From SAR86 cluster bacterium (lineage in GTDB: Bacteria; Pseudomonadota; Gammaproteobacteria; Magnimaribacterales; Magnimaribacteraceae): DNA of 64,000 nucleotides. The stretch covers positions 1 through 64,000 of the forward strand of contig JAQWNM010000009.1 in assembly GCA_029268615.1 (NCBI GenBank). Direction: 5' to 3'. The position numbers and the translations under genes are program-made. The notes under the pieces are model-generated. The model searched no databases. It was given only the letters and a program-made list of their open reading frames with translations, and was not told the origin of the DNA. Below are positions 25,697 to 33,831 of the stretch, piece after piece; position 1 is the stretch's first letter, and each line of letters begins with the position of its first letter.

Positions 25697-25781
25697 TTTT
25701 AGAAATTTACTTAATCTGATGTTGTCATACATAAAAAATATGTAAAGCTTTTCTCACTAAGACTTAATTAAATCAATTAGT

Positions 25782-25816
25782 TTGAAACTGGTAATATTTA
25801 TATTAAGATATTACCA
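25782..25816 (+). promoter_or_regulatory. Promoter with overlapping operator-like palindrome before the Atu-type operon
   Basis: TTGAAA at 25782-25787 is a good -35 and TAAGAT at 25804-25809 a fair -10 (spacing 16). Perfect 9-bp arms TGGTAATAT (25789-25797) and ATATTACCA (25808-25816) flank a 10-nt spacer, covering the promoter spacer and the -10. This geometry is typical of a repressor operator. The TetR-family regulator encoded at 30562 in the same operon is the obvious candidate ligand (inference). A Shine-Dalgarno AGAGGAGAG follows at 25835-25843. Confidence 0.5.
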
Positions 25817-25847
25817 TATAGAAAAATCATTTTAAGAGGAGAGAATT

Positions 25848-26963
25848 ATGGCTATCAAAAGCAGGATTTGTGACACTTTTGGAATTAAATATCCCATCTT
25901 TTTAGCTGGCATGGGAGGAGCTGCTAATCCGGCATTAGCAGCAGCCGTTTCTAATGCAGGAGGCCTAGGCGTACTAGGAGCTGCAGCTTGCACACCCGAG
26001 CAAATGAGGCGATGGATAAAAGAAACTAGGGAGTTAACTGACAAACCTTTTGGTGTAGATACTTTACTTCCCATGTCTGTAAGAGGAGGAGGAAATATTA
26101 AGCAAAATCAAGGTCAAGACCCTGCGGATCTTGTAGCTGATTATAAGAAAATGGCTATGCAATTCATGACTGAACAAGGACTTAAGATAGTTGAGGAAGA
26201 CAGGGAAGCAACTGCCATTGAAAGTGTAGGTCTGTTTACAAAAGAATTTTTTGAAGCCCAAATGGAAGTAGTAATTGAGGAAAAAGTTCCTGTCTATGCA
26301 GCTGGATTAGGTAACCCTGACCCTTGGATGGAAAGAATGAGAGCAAATAATACTAAAGTAATGACTGTTGTCGGCGCTGTCAGGCATACAGTTAAAGTAG
26401 CAGCTGCAAATGTTGATGCAATTGTAGCCCAAGGTCACGATGCTGGAGGCCATAATTCTCCAATAGGTACCATGGCTTTACTGCCTCAAGTTGTAGATGC
26501 AGCTAATGGAATACCAGTTCTAGGAGCAGGTGGTATCAGTGACGGAAGAGGTATAGCAGCTGCACTCATGCTAGGCGCTGAGGGAGTATGGATTGGTTCA
26601 GCTTTTTTGGCCGCTGAAGAATCAGGAATTCATCCACACCAAAAACAAGCAATTGTAGATTCTACTGAAGAAGGAACGGTTATTTCTCGTTCTATTACTG
26701 GAAAACCAGCCAGAATTATAAGGAGTGCATGGACAGATTTTTGGGAAAGATCTGATCATGACCCCCTTCCTATGCCCTATCAATCTGCTATTGCCGGCAA
26801 GGTGTTAGCAGCTGCAGATATTGATGGCAGACAAGATATTAATCCTGGTTTTGCAGGACAAGGTATAGGCATGATTAAAAAAGTTAGGCCAGCCGCAGAA
26901 ATCATGGCTGAATTAGTTGAAGGCCTTGAAAGGACTCTGCAAGACTCAAAAAAATTGACCTAG
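25848..26963 (+). CDS. Nitronate monooxygenase (2-nitropropane dioxygenase family)
   Basis: 371-residue FMN-binding TIM barrel. KYPIFLAGMGGAANPALAAA and NAGGLGVLGAA are the N-terminal flavin-site motifs. GHDAGGHN contains the putative catalytic His, and LGAGGISDGRGIAAALMLGA is the phosphate-binding loop. The family oxidises alkyl nitronates or acts as NAD(P)H:quinone reductase. It is the first gene of a long plus-strand operon, 28 nt before the carboxyltransferase gene. Its role next to acyl-CoA carboxylase genes is unclear; detoxifying propionate-3-nitronate-like inhibitors is one possibility. Confidence 0.88.
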   Translation: MAIKSRICDTFGIKYPIFLAGMGGAANPALAAAVSNAGGLGVLGAAACTPEQMRRWIKETRELTDKPFGVDTLLPMSVRGGGNIKQNQGQDPADLVADYKKMAMQFMTEQGLKIVEEDREATAIESVGLFTKEFFEAQMEVVIEEKVPVYAAGLGNPDPWMERMRANNTKVMTVVGAVRHTVKVAAANVDAIVAQGHDAGGHNSPIGTMALLPQVVDAANGIPVLGAGGISDGRGIAAALMLGAEGVWIGSAFLAAEESGIHPHQKQAIVDSTEEGTVISRSITGKPARIIRSAWTDFWERSDHDPLPMPYQSAIAGKVLAAADIDGRQDINPGFAGQGIGMIKKVRPAAEIMAELVEGLERTLQDSKKLT

Positions 26964-26991: not shown

Positions 26992-28632
26992 ATGTCGCTT
27001 GCACCTCCAATCATAACTAATCTAAATACTAGTTCCGAAGCATTTGAAAAGAATAAGCAATCAATGCTTGAGAAACTTGAAAATATAGAAGACCTTTTGG
27101 ATTATGTTGAACTTGGTGGTGGCATGCATCACCACGAAAGATTAGCTGCACGAGGAAAGATGCCGGTTCGGGAGAGAATCGCTAATTTTCTTGATCCTGA
27201 TACACCTTTTTTAGAGATCAGCGCTTTAGCTGCTTATGATTCAGATTATCCTGTTGGTGGAGGCTGCGTAGCTGGTATTGGTATTATAGCCGGAACTGAA
27301 TGTGTAATATTTGCTAATGATCCTACTGTCCTTGCGGGAGCCATGCACGCTTATTCAGGAAAAAAATGGACACGAGCTATGGAAATCTCCAGAGTAAATA
27401 AGTTGCCTTATGTCCAATTTGTAGAATCTGCTGGAGGCGATCTAAGGATGGGAGGCGGTAAAGGGAAAGAAAGAGGTACTATGCTTGGAGGAGGCCATTT
27501 TGCTGAATCAGGAAGAACATTCTATGACGTGACAGAATTATCTAAACTAAGAATACCAACCATCTCAATTGTTTTTGGATCTTCAACAGCTGGAGGTGCC
27601 TATCAACCTGGGATGTCAGATTATAATATTTTTATAAAAAAACAGTCTAAGGTTTTCTTAGGAGGTCCTCCATTGGTAAAAATGGCAACGGGAGAGGAAT
27701 CAGATGATGAAACTTTAGGCGGAGGTCAAATGCATGCCGAGAAATCTGGATTAGCAGACTATTTAGCCGAAGATGAAATGGATGCTCTCAGGATTGCCAG
27801 AGAAGTAGTTTCTCATCTTAATTGGAGAAAAGAAGGTAACAAACCTCTCCACAGATCTGAAGAACCAATAAATGAGATAGAGGATTTACTTGGTTTAGTG
27901 GATCCAGATTTAAAAAGACCTTTTGATGTCAAAGAAGTCATTAGCCGTGTCGTTGACGGATCAAGATTTGAAGAATTTAAACCTTTATTTGGATCTACAA
28001 TGGTTTGCGGTTTTGCGTCTATACATGGCTACACAGTTGGAATTTTAGGAAATAATGGTCCTATTTTTCCAGACACGGCCTCTAAAGGAGCTCACTTTGT
28101 CCAGCTATGTAACCAGATTGATGTGCCCATTATTTTTCTGCAGAATATAACTGGATTTGTAGTAGGCAAAGACTATGAAAAAGATGGTCAAATAAAAAAA
28201 GGGGCTCAATTCTTAAATGCAGTTTCAAATTCTACCGTTCCTCATTTGACTATAATTTTAGGAAATTCATACGGGGCTGGAACGTATGCAATGTCTGGAA
28301 GAGCATTTGATAATAGATTTACGTTTCTATGGCCTTCTGCAAAAATTGCTGTTATGGGCCCGCAGCAAATAGCCGGTGTTATGTCTATTGTAAGGAGAGC
28401 TAGAGCAGCAAGAACTGGTGAAAAATTTGATGAAAAAGAAGACGCTAAAATGGTTGCTTTTGCAGAGAAAATTCAAGAAGAAGGTTCTTTAGCTCTAAGG
28501 GCAACTGGAGCTATTAGTGATGATGGAATTATTGACCCAAGAGATACTAGAACTGTACTGGGTATGTGCTTATCAATTGTAAATGGGAAACTTGTTGAAG
28601 GTACATCGGGTTACGGAGTGTATAGACTATGA
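26992..28632 (+). CDS. Biotin-dependent acyl-CoA carboxylase, carboxyltransferase (beta) subunit
   Basis: 546 residues with tandem crotonase-fold carboxyltransferase domains. The first half has GGGMHHHERLAARGKMPVRE and FVESAGGDLRMGGG, then GSSTAGGAYQPGMSDY. The second half has RVVDGSRFEEFKP, NNGPIFPDTASKGAHF and GNSYGAGTYAMSGRAFD. This is the methylcrotonyl/geranyl-CoA-type beta subunit, which moves CO2 from carboxybiotin to an acyl-CoA. The neighbouring AtuA-family and hydratase genes make a geranyl-CoA (AtuC-like) or related branched substrate plausible; methylcrotonyl-CoA cannot be excluded. The stop overlaps the alpha-subunit start as ATGA. Confidence 0.92.
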   Translation: MSLAPPIITNLNTSSEAFEKNKQSMLEKLENIEDLLDYVELGGGMHHHERLAARGKMPVRERIANFLDPDTPFLEISALAAYDSDYPVGGGCVAGIGIIAGTECVIFANDPTVLAGAMHAYSGKKWTRAMEISRVNKLPYVQFVESAGGDLRMGGGKGKERGTMLGGGHFAESGRTFYDVTELSKLRIPTISIVFGSSTAGGAYQPGMSDYNIFIKKQSKVFLGGPPLVKMATGEESDDETLGGGQMHAEKSGLADYLAEDEMDALRIAREVVSHLNWRKEGNKPLHRSEEPINEIEDLLGLVDPDLKRPFDVKEVISRVVDGSRFEEFKPLFGSTMVCGFASIHGYTVGILGNNGPIFPDTASKGAHFVQLCNQIDVPIIFLQNITGFVVGKDYEKDGQIKKGAQFLNAVSNSTVPHLTIILGNSYGAGTYAMSGRAFDNRFTFLWPSAKIAVMGPQQIAGVMSIVRRARAARTGEKFDEKEDAKMVAFAEKIQEEGSLALRATGAISDDGIIDPRDTRTVLGMCLSIVNGKLVEGTSGYGVYRL

Positions 28633-30557
28633 CGTTTCATAAATTACTTATTGCAAATAGAGGTGAAATTGCTTGCAGAATTATAAGAAGTGCACATGAA
28701 ATGGGCATAACATGTGTTGCTGTTTATGTTGATGCTGATACTAATTCTCCATATGTGAAACAAGCAGATGAGGCCATTAAACTAAAAGAAGATTATCTAG
28801 ATGGTAAAGAAATCATAGAAGCAGCTCTTTGTTGTGGAGCTCAAGCTATTCATCCAGGATATGGTTTTTTATCAGAAAATGCTAAATTTTCAAGAGACGT
28901 TATCAAATCTGGACTTATCTGGGTTGGCCCGAGTTCTAGGGTCATATCTTCGATGGGAGACAAACTTAAAGCAAAAGAAATAGCTGACAAAGTGGGCGTA
29001 CCAACTTTGCCAATGACTACTGATCCTAAAAAAGCTAAAAATATTGGCTATCCCATACTCATCAAGGCTGCAGCTGGAGGAGGTGGTAAAGGAATGAGGA
29101 TAGTTAAATCAGAAAAAGATCTTAAAGAAGCAATTATTGGAGCAAAGAGAGAAGCTTTGACAGGATTTGCGGATGATAGGATTTTTATTGAGCGTTATGT
29201 TGACGCCTCAAGACATATTGAGATGCAAATATTAGGAGACTCTAAAGGTAACATAGTTCACTTAGGTGAAAGAGAATGTTCTATCCAAAGACGGCATCAA
29301 AAAATTATTGAGGAATCTCCTTCTCCTAGAGTAGATCTCGAAATGAGAAATGCCATGGGTGAAGCAGCCATAAAACTTGCTAAGAAATTAAAATATGAAT
29401 CCGCCGGAACTATTGAATTCTTAGTAGATGATAAAACAGGAGAATTTTGGTTTTTAGAAGTTAACACTCGACTTCAAGTTGAGCATCCAGTGACGGAAGG
29501 AGTCACAGGTAAAGATTTAGTCTATGAACAATTGAGGATCGCAAGAGGCGAAGAATTAGGTTACTCGCAAGAAGATATATCTTGGAGCGGCTCATCAATA
29601 GAAGCAAGGCTATACGCCGAGGATCCAGCTAATGACTTCTTGCCGGCTACCGGAGAACTAATAGCTTTTGAAGCTAATCCCGATATTAAAGTTAGATGGG
29701 ATACTGGTGTAGAAAAAGGGTCCATAATAGGCACAGACTTTGATCCAATGATAGCAAAAGTTATATCTACGGCTCGTACTCGAACTGATGCCGCAAATAA
29801 GCTTGCTTTTGCACTAGAAACTCTTCACATTGGAGGACTAACCACTAATAGAGATTTTTTAGTGGCATCTTTAAGAACAAAACAATTTCATAAAGGGCTT
29901 ACTACTTCTGATTTCATTAAGAAAGCTAACCCCAAAAGATCTATCATTTTAAAGGGGAAAGATCTCAATCATGCTACTTCAATAGCTGCATTATGGATTC
30001 AAGGTGAAAATAGGAATGATGCTCTCTTATTAAATGAAATACCTTCTGGATGGAGAAACTCTAGACTTCCTCTACAAACGACCTCATTTAAGTACCTAGA
30101 ACAGGATATTACTGTTGCATACCGATCTAATCGAAATGGTTTTTTTGATCTTAATAAAAACTCAACGGCAAGGATTATTAAGTGGAGCAAAAAAGAAATA
30201 GACGTTGAAATAGATAATAAACGCTTCTCTTCAAAAGTTACAAAAAAGGGAAATAGAATTTTAGTTCACATGCCTTGGGGAGATGTTTTATTAGAGATTC
30301 TTCCTCGTTTTCTAGTTCCTGGATCAGACATAGAAACAGGAGGTCTAAAAGCTCCAATGCCAGGAAAAGTTATAGACTTGAAGATAAAAGTTGGTAGTAA
30401 AGTAAAGAAAGGAGATATTCTAGTTATTTTAGAAGCTATGAAAATGGAACATCAGATAACTGCAACAGAAAATGGAAAAGTTACTGAAGTATTTATAAAA
30501 GAAGGTAACCAAATAGAAAATGGTGCATTGCTAATGGTGGTTGAAGCAAATCAATAA
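28629..30557 (+). CDS. Biotin-dependent acyl-CoA carboxylase, biotin carboxylase/BCCP (alpha) subunit
   Basis: 642 residues. The biotin carboxylase domain (1-450) carries LLIANRGEIACRIIRSA, the glycine-rich ATP loop AAAGGGGKGMRIV, RECSIQRRHQK and FLEVNTRLQVEHPVTE. A linker domain (about 450-565) follows, then the biotinyl domain, where EAMKMEH contains the biotinylated Lys605. The protein loads CO2 onto biotin using ATP and bicarbonate for the beta subunit at 26992. Length and domain order match MccA/AtuF-type subunits. It overlaps the beta-subunit gene by 4 nt. Confidence 0.93.
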   Translation: MTFHKLLIANRGEIACRIIRSAHEMGITCVAVYVDADTNSPYVKQADEAIKLKEDYLDGKEIIEAALCCGAQAIHPGYGFLSENAKFSRDVIKSGLIWVGPSSRVISSMGDKLKAKEIADKVGVPTLPMTTDPKKAKNIGYPILIKAAAGGGGKGMRIVKSEKDLKEAIIGAKREALTGFADDRIFIERYVDASRHIEMQILGDSKGNIVHLGERECSIQRRHQKIIEESPSPRVDLEMRNAMGEAAIKLAKKLKYESAGTIEFLVDDKTGEFWFLEVNTRLQVEHPVTEGVTGKDLVYEQLRIARGEELGYSQEDISWSGSSIEARLYAEDPANDFLPATGELIAFEANPDIKVRWDTGVEKGSIIGTDFDPMIAKVISTARTRTDAANKLAFALETLHIGGLTTNRDFLVASLRTKQFHKGLTTSDFIKKANPKRSIILKGKDLNHATSIAALWIQGENRNDALLLNEIPSGWRNSRLPLQTTSFKYLEQDITVAYRSNRNGFFDLNKNSTARIIKWSKKEIDVEIDNKRFSSKVTKKGNRILVHMPWGDVLLEILPRFLVPGSDIETGGLKAPMPGKVIDLKIKVGSKVKKGDILVILEAMKMEHQITATENGKVTEVFIKEGNQIENGALLMVVEANQ

Positions 30558-30561
30558 AAAT

Positions 30562-31254
30562 ATGGCCGTAAGATCATCTTCTCTTAAAAATCACTTTATT
30601 GTATCTAAGAACCTTAGAGCACCTCGCCCTCTTTTATCAAAGAAAGATGAAAATAATTTAACTAAACGCCAACTTGAAGCTCTAAATGAATTAGAAAATC
30701 TTATAAAAACAGGTATCCCAGACCTCACTATGTCTCAAATAGCCAATAAATTGAAAGTATCCTTAAGGACACTTTATGAGTTAGCTCCGAGTAAGGAAGA
30801 ATTAGTCTTAATAGCCGTAGATAGGCTTTTATTTAAAATTGGTAAAGAAGCTCAAAATTCAATAAATTTAAATGATTCTCCTCTTACTCAACTTAAAAAG
30901 TATTTAAATATAACCACTAAGGCATTACATCCTACTACCCTTGCCTTTTCTAGAGATTTTAGCGAATTGAAAGGTGCCAAAGAGCTTGTTGATGCCCATG
31001 AAAATTTCGTAATAGCTTTTACTCAAAGCCTCCTAAAAGAAGCAATAAAAGAAAAAGAAATAAGAGATGTAGATACAGCTGCTTTTGCTCATGTCTTGTC
31101 AGGACTTGGAAGGGACTTTAATCGTCAGTATGCAAACTCCTCTTTTGAGCAAGATCCAGTTAGCACAGCTATGGCTATAAGTGAGATTATCTTTATTGGT
31201 TTAGAAGAAAAAACTCATGTACTGAGTTTAAATAAGGAGGAAAGCTGTGAGTAA
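30562..31254 (+). CDS. TetR-family transcriptional regulator
   Basis: 230 residues from the ATG at 30562, 4 nt after the carboxylase stop; a TTG at 30541 would overlap it. The N-terminal helix-turn-helix reads LTMSQIANKLKVSLRTLYELAPSKEELVLIAVD in outline (about residues 55-90), typical of TetR. The C-terminal all-helical ligand domain would sense an acyl-CoA or terpenoid intermediate. It lies inside the operon it probably controls, and a 9-bp-arm palindrome overlies the operon promoter at 25782-25816. It overlaps the AtuA-family start by 8 nt. Confidence 0.86.
   Translation: MAVRSSSLKNHFIVSKNLRAPRPLLSKKDENNLTKRQLEALNELENLIKTGIPDLTMSQIANKLKVSLRTLYELAPSKEELVLIAVDRLLFKIGKEAQNSINLNDSPLTQLKKYLNITTKALHPTTLAFSRDFSELKGAKELVDAHENFVIAFTQSLLKEAIKEKEIRDVDTAAFAHVLSGLGRDFNRQYANSSFEQDPVSTAMAISEIIFIGLEEKTHVLSLNKEESCE
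31234..31240 (+). promoter_or_regulatory. Ribosome binding site supporting the GTG start of the AtuA-family gene
   Basis: AAGGAGG sits 6 nt before the GTG at 31247, inside the 3' end of the TetR gene. Its strength and spacing justify the non-ATG start and the 8-nt overlap. Confidence 0.75.
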
Positions 31255-33013
31255 TAAAATAATAATAGGTAATTGCAGTGGCTTCTATGGAGATAGACTT
31301 TCTGCGGCAAAAGATATGGTTGACGGCGGTCCTCTTGACATTTTAACAGGAGATTATTTAGCTGAATTAACTATGACAATACTTTATGGCCAAAAAATGA
31401 AAAGAGGTGATGAACATGGTTATGTCGGGACTTTTCTAAAACAATTCAAAGAAATAGCTACAACCTGCCAAGAAAAAAATATAAAAGTTGTAACTAATGC
31501 TGGAGGATTGAATCCAGAATCCATGGCTCAAAAAATAGAAGAAATTATTAATGATCTAAATTTATCTTTGAAAGTAGCATATATTGATGGAGATGATCTA
31601 ATACCTAGACTCGATGAATTACACGACAAGGGAGTATTGCTGAAAAGTATAGAAAAAGATATTTCACTTAAAGATTATGGAAAAAGTGCATTGACTGCAA
31701 ATGCATATTTTGGAGCTTGGGGAATCAAGGAAGCTCTTGATAATGGTGCAGATATTGTTGTTTGTCCAAGGGTAACAGATGCTGCTGTAGTTATAGGGCC
31801 TGCTGCATGGAGATTTAATTGGTCCAGAGATAACTATGATGCACTAGCAGGATCCTTAGCAGCTGGTCATATTATAGAATGTGGAGCTCAAGCAACAGGA
31901 GGAAATTACTCTTTCTTCGAAGAAGTTCCTTCTTTCTTTAATATTGGATACCCAATAGCAGAAATATTTGAAGATGGCAGCTTTACTATAACAAAACATC
32001 CCAATACTGGTGGCCTAGTTTCTGTTGGAACTGTTACAGCTCAGCTACTTTATGAGATTAATTCTCCGGCCTACTTAAACCCAGATGTTATTGGCCATTT
32101 TGATACTTTAAAAATAGAACAAGAGCAAGATAATAGAGTACATGTCTCGGGCTGTAGAGGAAGCAGCGCCCCTCAAACTCATAAAGTTTGTATTAATCTT
32201 CAAGGTGGTTTTAGAAACGGTACAGAAATTTTGTTAACTGGACTTGATATAGAAGAAAAATCTAAGTTAGTTACTGATCTTATTTTTGATAATTTAGGTG
32301 GAAAGGAGCAATTTGATAAAGTAGATATTCAACTAAATAGAACTGAGAAAATAAACCCCTTTTCGAATGAAGAAGCGCAAGCATCTTTGAGAATCTCTGT
32401 TATGTCTAAAAATCCTGATCTAGTAGGGAGATTATTCAACGCAAAAATTACAGAATTGGCTTTAGCAAGTATCCCTGGTTACACTGGGAGAGCGGGCATG
32501 CCATCAGGAGCATATATAGAGTATTGGCCTGCTTTGGTAGACAGTCAATATATTAAAGAAAAAGTACACCTTGATGGGAAAACTATTGAAATTATCCCAA
32601 CTAGCCAACTTGGATTAGATGAAGTTTCTTACCAAAAAATACCTTATAAAAATGAATTACCAGAGATAGAAACAACAAAAAATATTCCGTTTGGAAAACT
32701 TTATGGAACGAGGTCAGGAGATAAAGGGGGCTGTGCAAATCTAGGAGTTTGGGCTAAAACAGCTGATTCTTATTCCTACTTATACGAATTCTTGACAGTA
32801 GAAAAAGTTAAAGAATTATTACCAGATCTTCAGGAATTTAATATAGATCGATATGAACTACCTAATATACTTTCTCTAAATTTCTATGTACATGACATTC
32901 TACAAGATGGTGTATCTTCATCTACTAGGCTAGATGGGCAAGCTAAATCACTTGGGGAGTATATTAGAGCAAAGAATATTGAAGTTCCTGATTTTTTATT
33001 AGATGAGAACTAG
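31247..33013 (+). CDS. AtuA-family (DUF1446) protein of acyclic terpene/branched acyl-CoA catabolism
   Basis: 588 residues, starting with GTG behind a strong Shine-Dalgarno. The N-terminal DUF1446/AtuA domain (about 1-450) reads IGNCSGFYGDRLSAAKDMV, LTGDYLAELTM and VVTNAGGLNPES. The C-terminal AtuA-like ferredoxin-fold region (about 485-588) reads LYGTRSGDKGGCANLGVW. In Pseudomonas the equivalent gene belongs to the citronellol/geraniol (atu) cluster; its reaction is not established. Here both domains are fused. It precedes the enoyl-CoA hydratase gene by 8 nt, and the cluster lacks recognisable atuB, atuD, atuG and atuH neighbours. Confidence 0.85.
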   Translation: MSNKIIIGNCSGFYGDRLSAAKDMVDGGPLDILTGDYLAELTMTILYGQKMKRGDEHGYVGTFLKQFKEIATTCQEKNIKVVTNAGGLNPESMAQKIEEIINDLNLSLKVAYIDGDDLIPRLDELHDKGVLLKSIEKDISLKDYGKSALTANAYFGAWGIKEALDNGADIVVCPRVTDAAVVIGPAAWRFNWSRDNYDALAGSLAAGHIIECGAQATGGNYSFFEEVPSFFNIGYPIAEIFEDGSFTITKHPNTGGLVSVGTVTAQLLYEINSPAYLNPDVIGHFDTLKIEQEQDNRVHVSGCRGSSAPQTHKVCINLQGGFRNGTEILLTGLDIEEKSKLVTDLIFDNLGGKEQFDKVDIQLNRTEKINPFSNEEAQASLRISVMSKNPDLVGRLFNAKITELALASIPGYTGRAGMPSGAYIEYWPALVDSQYIKEKVHLDGKTIEIIPTSQLGLDEVSYQKIPYKNELPEIETTKNIPFGKLYGTRSGDKGGCANLGVWAKTADSYSYLYEFLTVEKVKELLPDLQEFNIDRYELPNILSLNFYVHDILQDGVSSSTRLDGQAKSLGEYIRAKNIEVPDFLLDEN

Positions 33014-33021
33014 GTGAATTT

Positions 33022-33831
33022 ATGAATACAACAAAAAAATTATCATTAGATGGATTAGTTTTTGAAGCAACAAAATTAAATATTGAAGGAAATATTCTTA
33101 CAATTATTTTAGACAGACCGGAAAGAAAAAATGCATTAAATTCTGTTATGACAAATGAAATTAATTACGCTCTAGCTTTTGCAAAGCAAGAAAGATCTAT
33201 TAGGGTTGTGATTCTAGCTGCTGAAGGTGATGTATTTTGCGCTGGAGCTGATTTAAAGAATATGTCAGGTAGAGAAAAACAGCCGAAATCTGCTGTACCT
33301 CAATTAAAAGGAAATTCAGATATAAGTTTATCAATTAGACATCTAAATAAGCCAGTAATTGCTAAAATTCAAGGAAAAGTCTTGGCCGGAGCTTTATTAA
33401 TGGTCACTAATTCTACTCACGCTATTGCAGCAGATCATGCAACCTTTTCTGCTCCAGAAATATTAAGAGGCATTTGGCCTTTTATGGTTATGGCAGGTTT
33501 GTTTAGAGTTATGCCAAAAAGAGCGGGGTTAGATTTTGTAATGAGAGGTATGGCGATTGACTCTAAACAAGCTGAATCATGGGGCTTGGTAAATCAATCT
33601 GTACCTAAAGAAAAACTAGATGAAGTAGTCGATGACCTAGCTAAAGAACTAGCCAATTTAGCTCCTACTACCATGCAAATGGGCTTATCAGCATATAATG
33701 AACAAGATGCAATGAGTTTTGATGAAGCTCTTCCTTTTTTGCAAAAACAAATAGCTGCTTGTGTTCAAAGCGATGATGCCAAAGAAGGTATCACAGCCTT
33801 TCTAGAAAAAAGGAAACCTAATTGGGACTAG
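33022..33831 (+). CDS. Enoyl-CoA hydratase/isomerase family protein (possible AtuE-like)
   Basis: 269-residue crotonase fold. LDRPERKNALNSVM, the oxyanion segment VFCAGADLKNM, and KIQGKVLAGALLMVTNSTHAIAADHATFSAPE appear in the usual order; the Gly of AGALL lines up with the second oxyanion hole. In the atu pathway this enzyme would hydrate the glutaconyl-type product of the carboxylase. It is the last gene of the plus-strand operon and overlaps the convergent DMT transporter gene by 14 nt. Confidence 0.87.
   Translation: MNTTKKLSLDGLVFEATKLNIEGNILTIILDRPERKNALNSVMTNEINYALAFAKQERSIRVVILAAEGDVFCAGADLKNMSGREKQPKSAVPQLKGNSDISLSIRHLNKPVIAKIQGKVLAGALLMVTNSTHAIAADHATFSAPEILRGIWPFMVMAGLFRVMPKRAGLDFVMRGMAIDSKQAESWGLVNQSVPKEKLDEVVDDLAKELANLAPTTMQMGLSAYNEQDAMSFDEALPFLQKQIAACVQSDDAKEGITAFLEKRKPNWD

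Follow-up and report, generated by a model that had tools for sequence, protein, structure and literature searches.

A predicted TetR operator over the promoter of a carboxylase operon in a SAR86 bacterium

The palindrome and the promoter around it

Which protein, if any, reads the palindrome that lies in front of a carboxylase operon in this SAR86 genome? The window, by which we mean the whole stretch of 64,000 nucleotides analysed, holds a tight one-strand run of genes, NMO-CTb-BCa-TetR-AtuA-ECH, in which neighbours overlap or lie a few bases apart (Table 1). Upstream of it, the arms TGGTAATAT and ATATTACCA form a perfect 9-bp inverted repeat with a 10-nt spacer, 28 bp overall and with the arm centres 19 bp apart, and TTGAAA and TAAGAT are separated by 16 nt. 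A preliminary description had proposed this palindrome as the autoregulatory site of the TetR, and its letters, coordinates, hexamers and palindromic arms all proved correct in the sequence. It had also placed the TetR gene within the same operon, where it is indeed the fourth gene of the packed run. The ATG of TetR at 30562 comes 4 nt after the stop codon of BCa (30557) and its end overlaps AtuA, which leaves little space for a separate TetR promoter. Gene packing and conserved hexamers together point to a single transcript from a single promoter.

Table 1 Coordinates of the putative operator, promoter elements and operon genes in the window
Feature	Positions	Strand	Basis or remark
-35 hexamer TTGAAA (putative promoter)	25782..25787	+	site positions -7 to -2, conserved
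Left operator arm TGGTAATAT	25789..25797	.	read in sequence; kept in relatives
-10 hexamer TAAGAT (putative)	25804..25809	+	site positions 15-20; overlaps spacer and right arm
Right operator arm ATATTACCA	25808..25816	.	read in sequence; kept in relatives
Ribosome-binding-site-like AGAGGAG before NMO start codon	25835..25841	+	read in sequence
NMO, nitronate monooxygenase-like, first gene of the operon in this genome	25848..26963	+	PF03060, 241 bits
CTb, acyl-CoA carboxylase beta subunit	26992..28632	+	
BCa, acyl-CoA carboxylase alpha subunit (biotin carboxylase and biotin carrier)	28629..30557	+	
TetR-family regulator, proposed operator binder	30562..31254 (ATG; alternative TTG 30541)	+	PF00440
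AtuA (DUF1446)	31247..33013	+	PF07287, 530 bits
ECH, enoyl-CoA hydratase/isomerase	33022..33831	+	

Considered on its own, the palindrome does not exceed chance and carries no statistical weight. The window contained 11 perfect inverted repeats with arms of at least 9 bp and a loop of up to 20 nt, against 11.4 expected (range 4–20) from 40 first-order Markov sequences, and the probability of at least one such repeat in the 115-nt intergenic region was 0.056. Three promoter-like sites were found in 25700–25900, compared with a mean of 1.3 in shuffles, which by itself is a weak match. Because the sequence by itself lends no support, the argument depends on comparison. With at most one mismatch, the motif occurred twice in the window's genome, namely at the operon promoter and upstream of an acyl-CoA dehydrogenase (ACAD) gene. 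With up to two mismatches, it was matched in 92 of 203 genomes of the order, compared with 6 of 203 for the reversed pattern used as a control, so a few of the two-mismatch sites will be chance hits. That the repeat is an accident of A+T-rich DNA agrees with the repeat count of the window, which equals expectation, but such an accident would not recur at the same place in dozens of relatives with this excess over the reversed pattern, and we consider this explanation refuted.

The site check of matches in relatives covered 27 loci. Two sites with three mismatches in the window's own genome (L003 and L004) were dropped because they lie inside open reading frames. Other matches with two or three mismatches lay in reading frames as well (G004 C61 and C4, G193 C3:52913, G179 C1, G177 C7, G166, G152 C7, G038 C1:777358 and G056).

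We collected 102 contexts of the site, 78 of them before CTb, 18 before NMO and 6 before ACAD matches; some of the NMO contexts are the CTb site viewed from a divergent NMO. The arms were near invariant over these contexts, many of which had been picked by exact match; since the palindrome itself brought them in, the perfection of the arms is partly a selection artefact. Conservation of the flank (site positions -7 to -2) and of spacer positions 15–18 is not subject to that selection. In the 90 contexts of full length, from which position frequencies were taken, the flank had T at -7 (0.86), T at -6 (0.62) and A at -2 (0.89), giving a TTWWTA-like -35 region in relatives, and the spacer had T (0.76), A (0.83), A/T and T (0.77) at positions 15–18, within a -10 region (15–20) that reads TAWTAT. 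The two hexamers of the preliminary description thus fall on positions conserved across relatives. Their register ranked third, with 7.2 of 12 consensus matches (all registers: mean 4.3, sd 1.2); the top register (7.7) shares this -35 and places the -10 three bases further on, where it is mostly fixed by the right arm. As the conserved flank and spacer correspond to TTGAAA and TAAGAT of the window, the predicted operator appears to lie within and over the likely core promoter.

Further out, at positions -17 to -12 of the site, ATWWTA is also conserved. On the reverse strand it resembles a -10 element (TAWWAT), with a -35 at +6 to +11 (6.9 of 12). This element is not kept in the window itself. 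In family f2 (e.g. L066:1458-1557), a conserved reverse-strand TAWWAT lies 12–17 nt left of the operator and would face a divergent GST-like gene. The operator of this family may therefore sit between divergent promoters and govern both directions.

The location of the site bears on two rival readings. In the first, the TetR binds the site and activates the operon. Some TetR proteins activate, and the sign of regulation is unreadable from sequence; yet the site lies between and over the conserved -35 and -10 elements, where a bound protein would block the polymerase, and operons that have no TetR keep their enzyme genes, as expected after the loss of a repressor. Activation is therefore unlikely. 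In the second, the palindrome acts as an RNA hairpin in the 5' untranslated region, as an attenuator or in control of the ribosome site. A transcript starting upstream would fold the repeat into a 9-bp stem with a 10-nt loop, and the distance to CTb, 20–65 nt before its start in all contexts collected, would suit such a role. Nevertheless, the 65 distinct sites, with nine arm pairs, included no two-sided change that restores pairing, and several of them break pairs; fixed letters without compensatory pairs form the pattern of DNA read by a protein. Moreover, no terminator-like site was found in 25700–25900, and the presence of the palindrome tracks a gene for a DNA-binding protein. A hairpin is thus highly improbable, and the reading as a TetR operator is followed below through relatives that carry or have lost the regulator.

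The site in relatives with and without the TetR gene

All 24 loci of the SAR86 order with a TetR match at E <1e-30 were taken as relatives' loci, so that they were chosen by the TetR and not by the palindrome. The promoter of CTb, the first carboxylase gene, was on the contig in 19 of them, and all 19 carried TGGTAATAT-N10-ATATTACCA with no mismatch (12 operons), one (1 operon) or two (6 operons). Absence of the palindrome upstream of orthologous operons, which the preliminary description had named as evidence against its reading, was thus looked for, and the palindrome was present each time. Among the remaining loci, three (G004, G013 and G032) had a site with one or two mismatches 55–56 nt before CTb on another contig, the front of one operon (G001) was unassembled, and one (G026) represents a relocated TetR.

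Across the 203 genomes of the order (TetR at E up to 1e-20, motif at up to two mismatches), 80 had both TetR and site, 4 only TetR, 12 only the site and 107 neither; these counts are non-independent because TetR and operator travel together with the operon. In the four genomes with TetR only, the contig ends within the operon before the promoter. Of the 12 motif-only genomes, G169 has a contig that ends inside a TetR gene (52 residues) and G155 has its TetR in pieces in the slot, both being missed at E 1e-20. In G119 and G050 the contig stops within BCa, before the TetR slot is reached. The match in G056 is inside a reading frame; in G054, G058, G096 and G103 it lies elsewhere, because the best match at the CTb promoter has eight mismatches. 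The last two, G104 and G076, have no CTb match. G020 combines a two-mismatch site with an empty TetR slot, which is read here as a recent loss of TetR.

A scan for the exact motif in species genomes (84,980 species, one genome each) returned 78 stretches, in 59 of which a CTb orthologue starts 23–52 nt downstream. In one more (L194), CTb starts just downstream and falls below the score limit of that count, and two SAR86 stretches (L205 and L231) had no CTb match within the stretch examined. Four (L166, L171, L197 and L217) came from two Gammaproteobacteria genomes, each also with an operon site (L224 and L232), and the other 12 came from unrelated taxa or had no related gene in view (L210 is cut at the edge). 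The unbiased sets are the 19 loci chosen by TetR and the counts for the 203 genomes; the named exact-motif records may repeat species already counted among them.

Operon structure varies among these relatives. In f2, another family of the SAR86 order, the run is CTb-BCa-TetR-AtuA-ECH-ACAD. L049 (G077), and also L170 and L216, have a CTb and a BCa like those of the window's family (85% and 74% identity at L049) together with a TetR and an AtuA like those of family f2 (43% and 69%). This mosaic is apparently the result of recombination inside the operon, with TetR and operator kept.

Some other DNA-binding protein, such as another TetR or a global regulator, might read the palindrome, its link to the operon's TetR being indirect. 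TetR and site share an operon, so their co-occurrence is partly inheritance, and breaks in the linkage are the stronger tests. CTb was present in 154 of the 203 genomes, 73 of them without a TetR match. We sampled 43 of these 73 (17 of 17 in family f1, 10 of 12 in f2, 10 of 35 in f3 and 6 of 9 in f4) together with the second operon of G026. Three genomes cut at contig ends (G007, G012 and G063, with 6, 4 and 7 mismatches) and the two whose contigs end inside BCa were left out, and G169 was counted as TetR-bearing. An empty TetR slot could be read in 37 genomes and G026, i.e. at 38 loci. At 29 of these, BCa and AtuA are neighbours, with a gap of -1 to 40 nt; at the other 9, all in f3, AtuA is not beside BCa on the same strand, and an empty slot there means that no TetR follows BCa. 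On the TetR-bearing side of this comparison, 26 of the 46 loci (25 exact-motif stretches and L319) had been brought in by the palindrome.

Of the 38 operons without TetR, 37 had three or more mismatches at the best match and one had two or fewer (G020, 2; G003, 3; G031, 4; the other 35 loci, 5–8). In genera g4 and g7 of family f1, several sites look like remnants in which the left arm is kept or nearly so. At five TetR-less or truncated loci of f1 (L279, L281, L286, L290 and L296), the left arm TGGTAATAT is intact and the right arm degraded. The intact left arm at TetR-less loci of this family may serve as part of the promoter.

G026 separates the regulator from the enzymes in another way. Here a TetR homologue follows a TonB receptor gene and is itself followed by genes for a serine hydrolase and an amidohydrolase (L053:834-7230; the last name was assigned by reading of the sequence), and a one-mismatch site precedes the TonB receptor gene by 23 nt. 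At this genome's carboxylase operon, which has no TetR, the best match has five mismatches.

A CTb tree was used to follow these changes, with identical CTb proteins merged (84 loci of known TetR state, giving 79 rows) and 34 loci of unknown TetR state left out. TetR presence changes five times on the tree, compared with a shuffled mean of 26.5, and the operator six times. In four independent pairs (starred branches), the operator followed TetR in an average of 3.9 and went against it in 0.0. The sign test on independent pairs gave a median p of 0.125; as the tree yields only 4–5 such pairs, p = 0.05 is out of reach. Although this small number leaves room for inheritance in the co-occurrence, another reader of the palindrome would not explain why, in G026, the site precedes the TetR-bearing operon and is degraded at the TetR-less one, nor why enzyme genes persist without TetR while their sites decay. 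This rival is improbable, and the operon's own TetR is the better candidate for the protein that reads the site.

A second target and a possible wider regulon

The second operator copy in the window's genome (L002) stands in front of an unlinked acyl-CoA dehydrogenase gene, 16 nt from its start codon, and two more acyl-CoA dehydrogenase genes follow closely. In family f2, the orthologue of this dehydrogenase comes after ECH in the operon run, so a gene that is unlinked here is part of the run there. The proposal of an autoregulatory site is supported, with a qualification: the 19 TetR operons, the absent or degraded sites at TetR-less ones and the relocated pair in G026 all support it, but the site is not only autoregulatory, given the copy at the dehydrogenase gene. 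In family f1, a site upstream of the dehydrogenase gene was present in 2 of 5 genomes with TetR and 0 of 20 without, one genome (G010, with a truncated match, 1 of 26) being left out; the site at the dehydrogenase gene of G013 has three mismatches. On the whole, comparison among relatives establishes the predicted operator, its position, its linkage to the operon's TetR and its second target.

Other genes are also preceded by the site in some lineages. In genus g18 (five loci), a second site is located 14 nt before an NMO homologue. At three g18 loci (L142:2742-2769, L143 and L152), this second site has two mismatches and also lies approximately 65 nt from a divergent gene, which at L142 encodes a luciferase-like monooxygenase. 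Furthermore, the two Gammaproteobacteria genomes returned by the exact-motif scan have three exact sites each. These sites are found before the carboxylase operon (L224 and L232), before acyl-CoA dehydrogenase genes (L171 and L197) and, at L217, before a run of thiolase and FadB-like genes with a divergent SDR gene. The arrangement in these genomes looks like an expanded regulon.

Taken further, these observations could describe a portable TetR-operator module in SAR86, controlling a branched-acid, possibly terpenoid, regulon. Such a module would have been lost repeatedly with graded decay of the operator, the left arm outlasting the right, would have moved to a TonB-receptor/hydrolase operon in one genome, and would have spread to thiolase/beta-oxidation and dehydrogenase operons in two other gammaproteobacterial genomes. 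We consider the chances of this broader account to be evenly balanced.

The regulator, its probable ligand and known systems

The TetR protein scored 24.2 bits against PF00440 (TetR_N helix-turn-helix), above the cut-off of 24. Its predicted model (mean pLDDT 82.6) matched TetR-family structures, the best with Z 16.2 and rmsd 2.8 over 181 residues. The ketosteroid regulator KstR2 (Z 14.0) and Bacillus FadR (Z 13.5) were also matched, and this similarity names no ligand because they are tied with many other TetR structures. Orthologues are 37–57% identical to the window's TetR; of their 20 invariant columns, 11 fall in the helix-turn-helix. Sites of single dimers of the family (TetR, SimR and DesT) span 15–17 bp, and dimer-of-dimers operators span 28 bp in QacR, 32 bp in CgmR, 31 bp in MS6564 and 22 bp in CprB (PMC4150764). 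Given these lengths, the 28-bp site and its arm-centre distance, two dimers per site are likelier than one, and we infer that the site would be filled by two TetR dimers. The likeness to QacR and the other dimer-of-dimers operators is one of site length only (PMC4150764); the genes apparently regulated here are catabolic.

The genes themselves suggest what the TetR may sense. Over the whole protein, CTb scored 490–494 bits for methylcrotonyl-CoA carboxylase (MCC), compared with 446 bits for geranyl-CoA carboxylase (GCC). The selectivity position of these carboxylases is Gly162, a small residue, in GCC and Phe191 in MCC (PMC4673880), and CTb appears to have Ser at that place (HFAESGRTF), read from the HMMER alignment to 5ikl_B. 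A carboxylase with AtuA, a hydratase and a dehydrogenase fits a pathway that degrades a branched acyl-CoA, which could be leucine/isovalerate-like or terpenoid. The control genomes contained no AtuA. As the gene set fits such a pathway, the ligand of the TetR is most likely an acyl-CoA intermediate.

Putting these lines together, the palindrome is very probably the operator of the TetR that the operon itself encodes as its fourth gene, and this TetR would repress the operon and the dehydrogenase gene and be released by an acyl-CoA. Physical binding, and repression rather than activation, are what we infer from the position and history of the site. In this scheme, without inducer, the TetR would occupy TGGTAATAT-N10-ATATTACCA over the -35 and -10 elements and block RNA polymerase. 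It would thus repress NMO-CTb-BCa-TetR-AtuA-ECH and limit its own supply, and through the second site it would also repress the unlinked dehydrogenase gene. Its release would be brought about by a branched-acid pathway intermediate, in all likelihood an acyl-CoA.

The nearest known systems are the TetR repressors AtuR and RdmA, which control the atu and dmg clusters in Pseudomonas (PMC9973270, PMC4847356). The likeness consists of a TetR gene near genes for AtuA, a carboxylase, a hydratase and a dehydrogenase, and of inverted repeats in the promoter (PMC9973270, PMC4847356). AtuR and RdmA bind two 13-bp repeats, AGCAAGCGCTTGG and CCAAGCGCTTGCT, separated by 40 or 42 bp, and the rdmA gene runs in the direction opposite to dmgA-H (PMC9973270). 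Here, in contrast, there is one 28-bp dyad with A+T-rich arms, and the TetR gene is inside the operon on the same strand. No AtuR 13-bp repeat was found in 25700–25850, and the 64 kb hold 9 at up to three mismatches, compared with 9.87 expected. By these two tests, promoter repeats and gene arrangement, the regulator is not AtuR.

Membership of the TetR family and control of fatty-acid or branched-acid genes are shared with PsrA, FadP, LiuQ and KstR, of which the first three are listed as TetR family in PMC5343134. Identity with KstR was rejected, as the protein scored 29.7 bits against NCBIfam NF033703 at a cut-off of 280. Around the site, PsrA-like and KstR-like consensus sequences gave matches at chance level only; one KstR-like match with one mismatch overlaps the operator (25783–25796), where 1.66 are expected in 3 kb. 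On present evidence, the TetR-operator pair appears real and ordinary in kind, and it is well supported by natural co-loss and relocation. It would work as other local TetR repressors of catabolic operons do.

SAR86 ranks among the most abundant groups of uncultured bacteria in surface seawater. In the open-access literature, among the matches listed, we found no regulator/operator pair described for SAR86 and no description of the operator or of AtuA in this group; both arm strings together appeared, among the matches listed there, only under titles on unrelated subjects. The predicted pair is specific enough to be tested in the tube without culturing the organism. Furthermore, the operator may serve as a tag for genome searches that ties unlinked genes for a dehydrogenase, an NMO-like protein and a thiolase to the carboxylase operon, and so narrows the pathway. 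The losses of TetR with decaying operators would document, in nature, the erosion of a regulatory site after its protein is gone.
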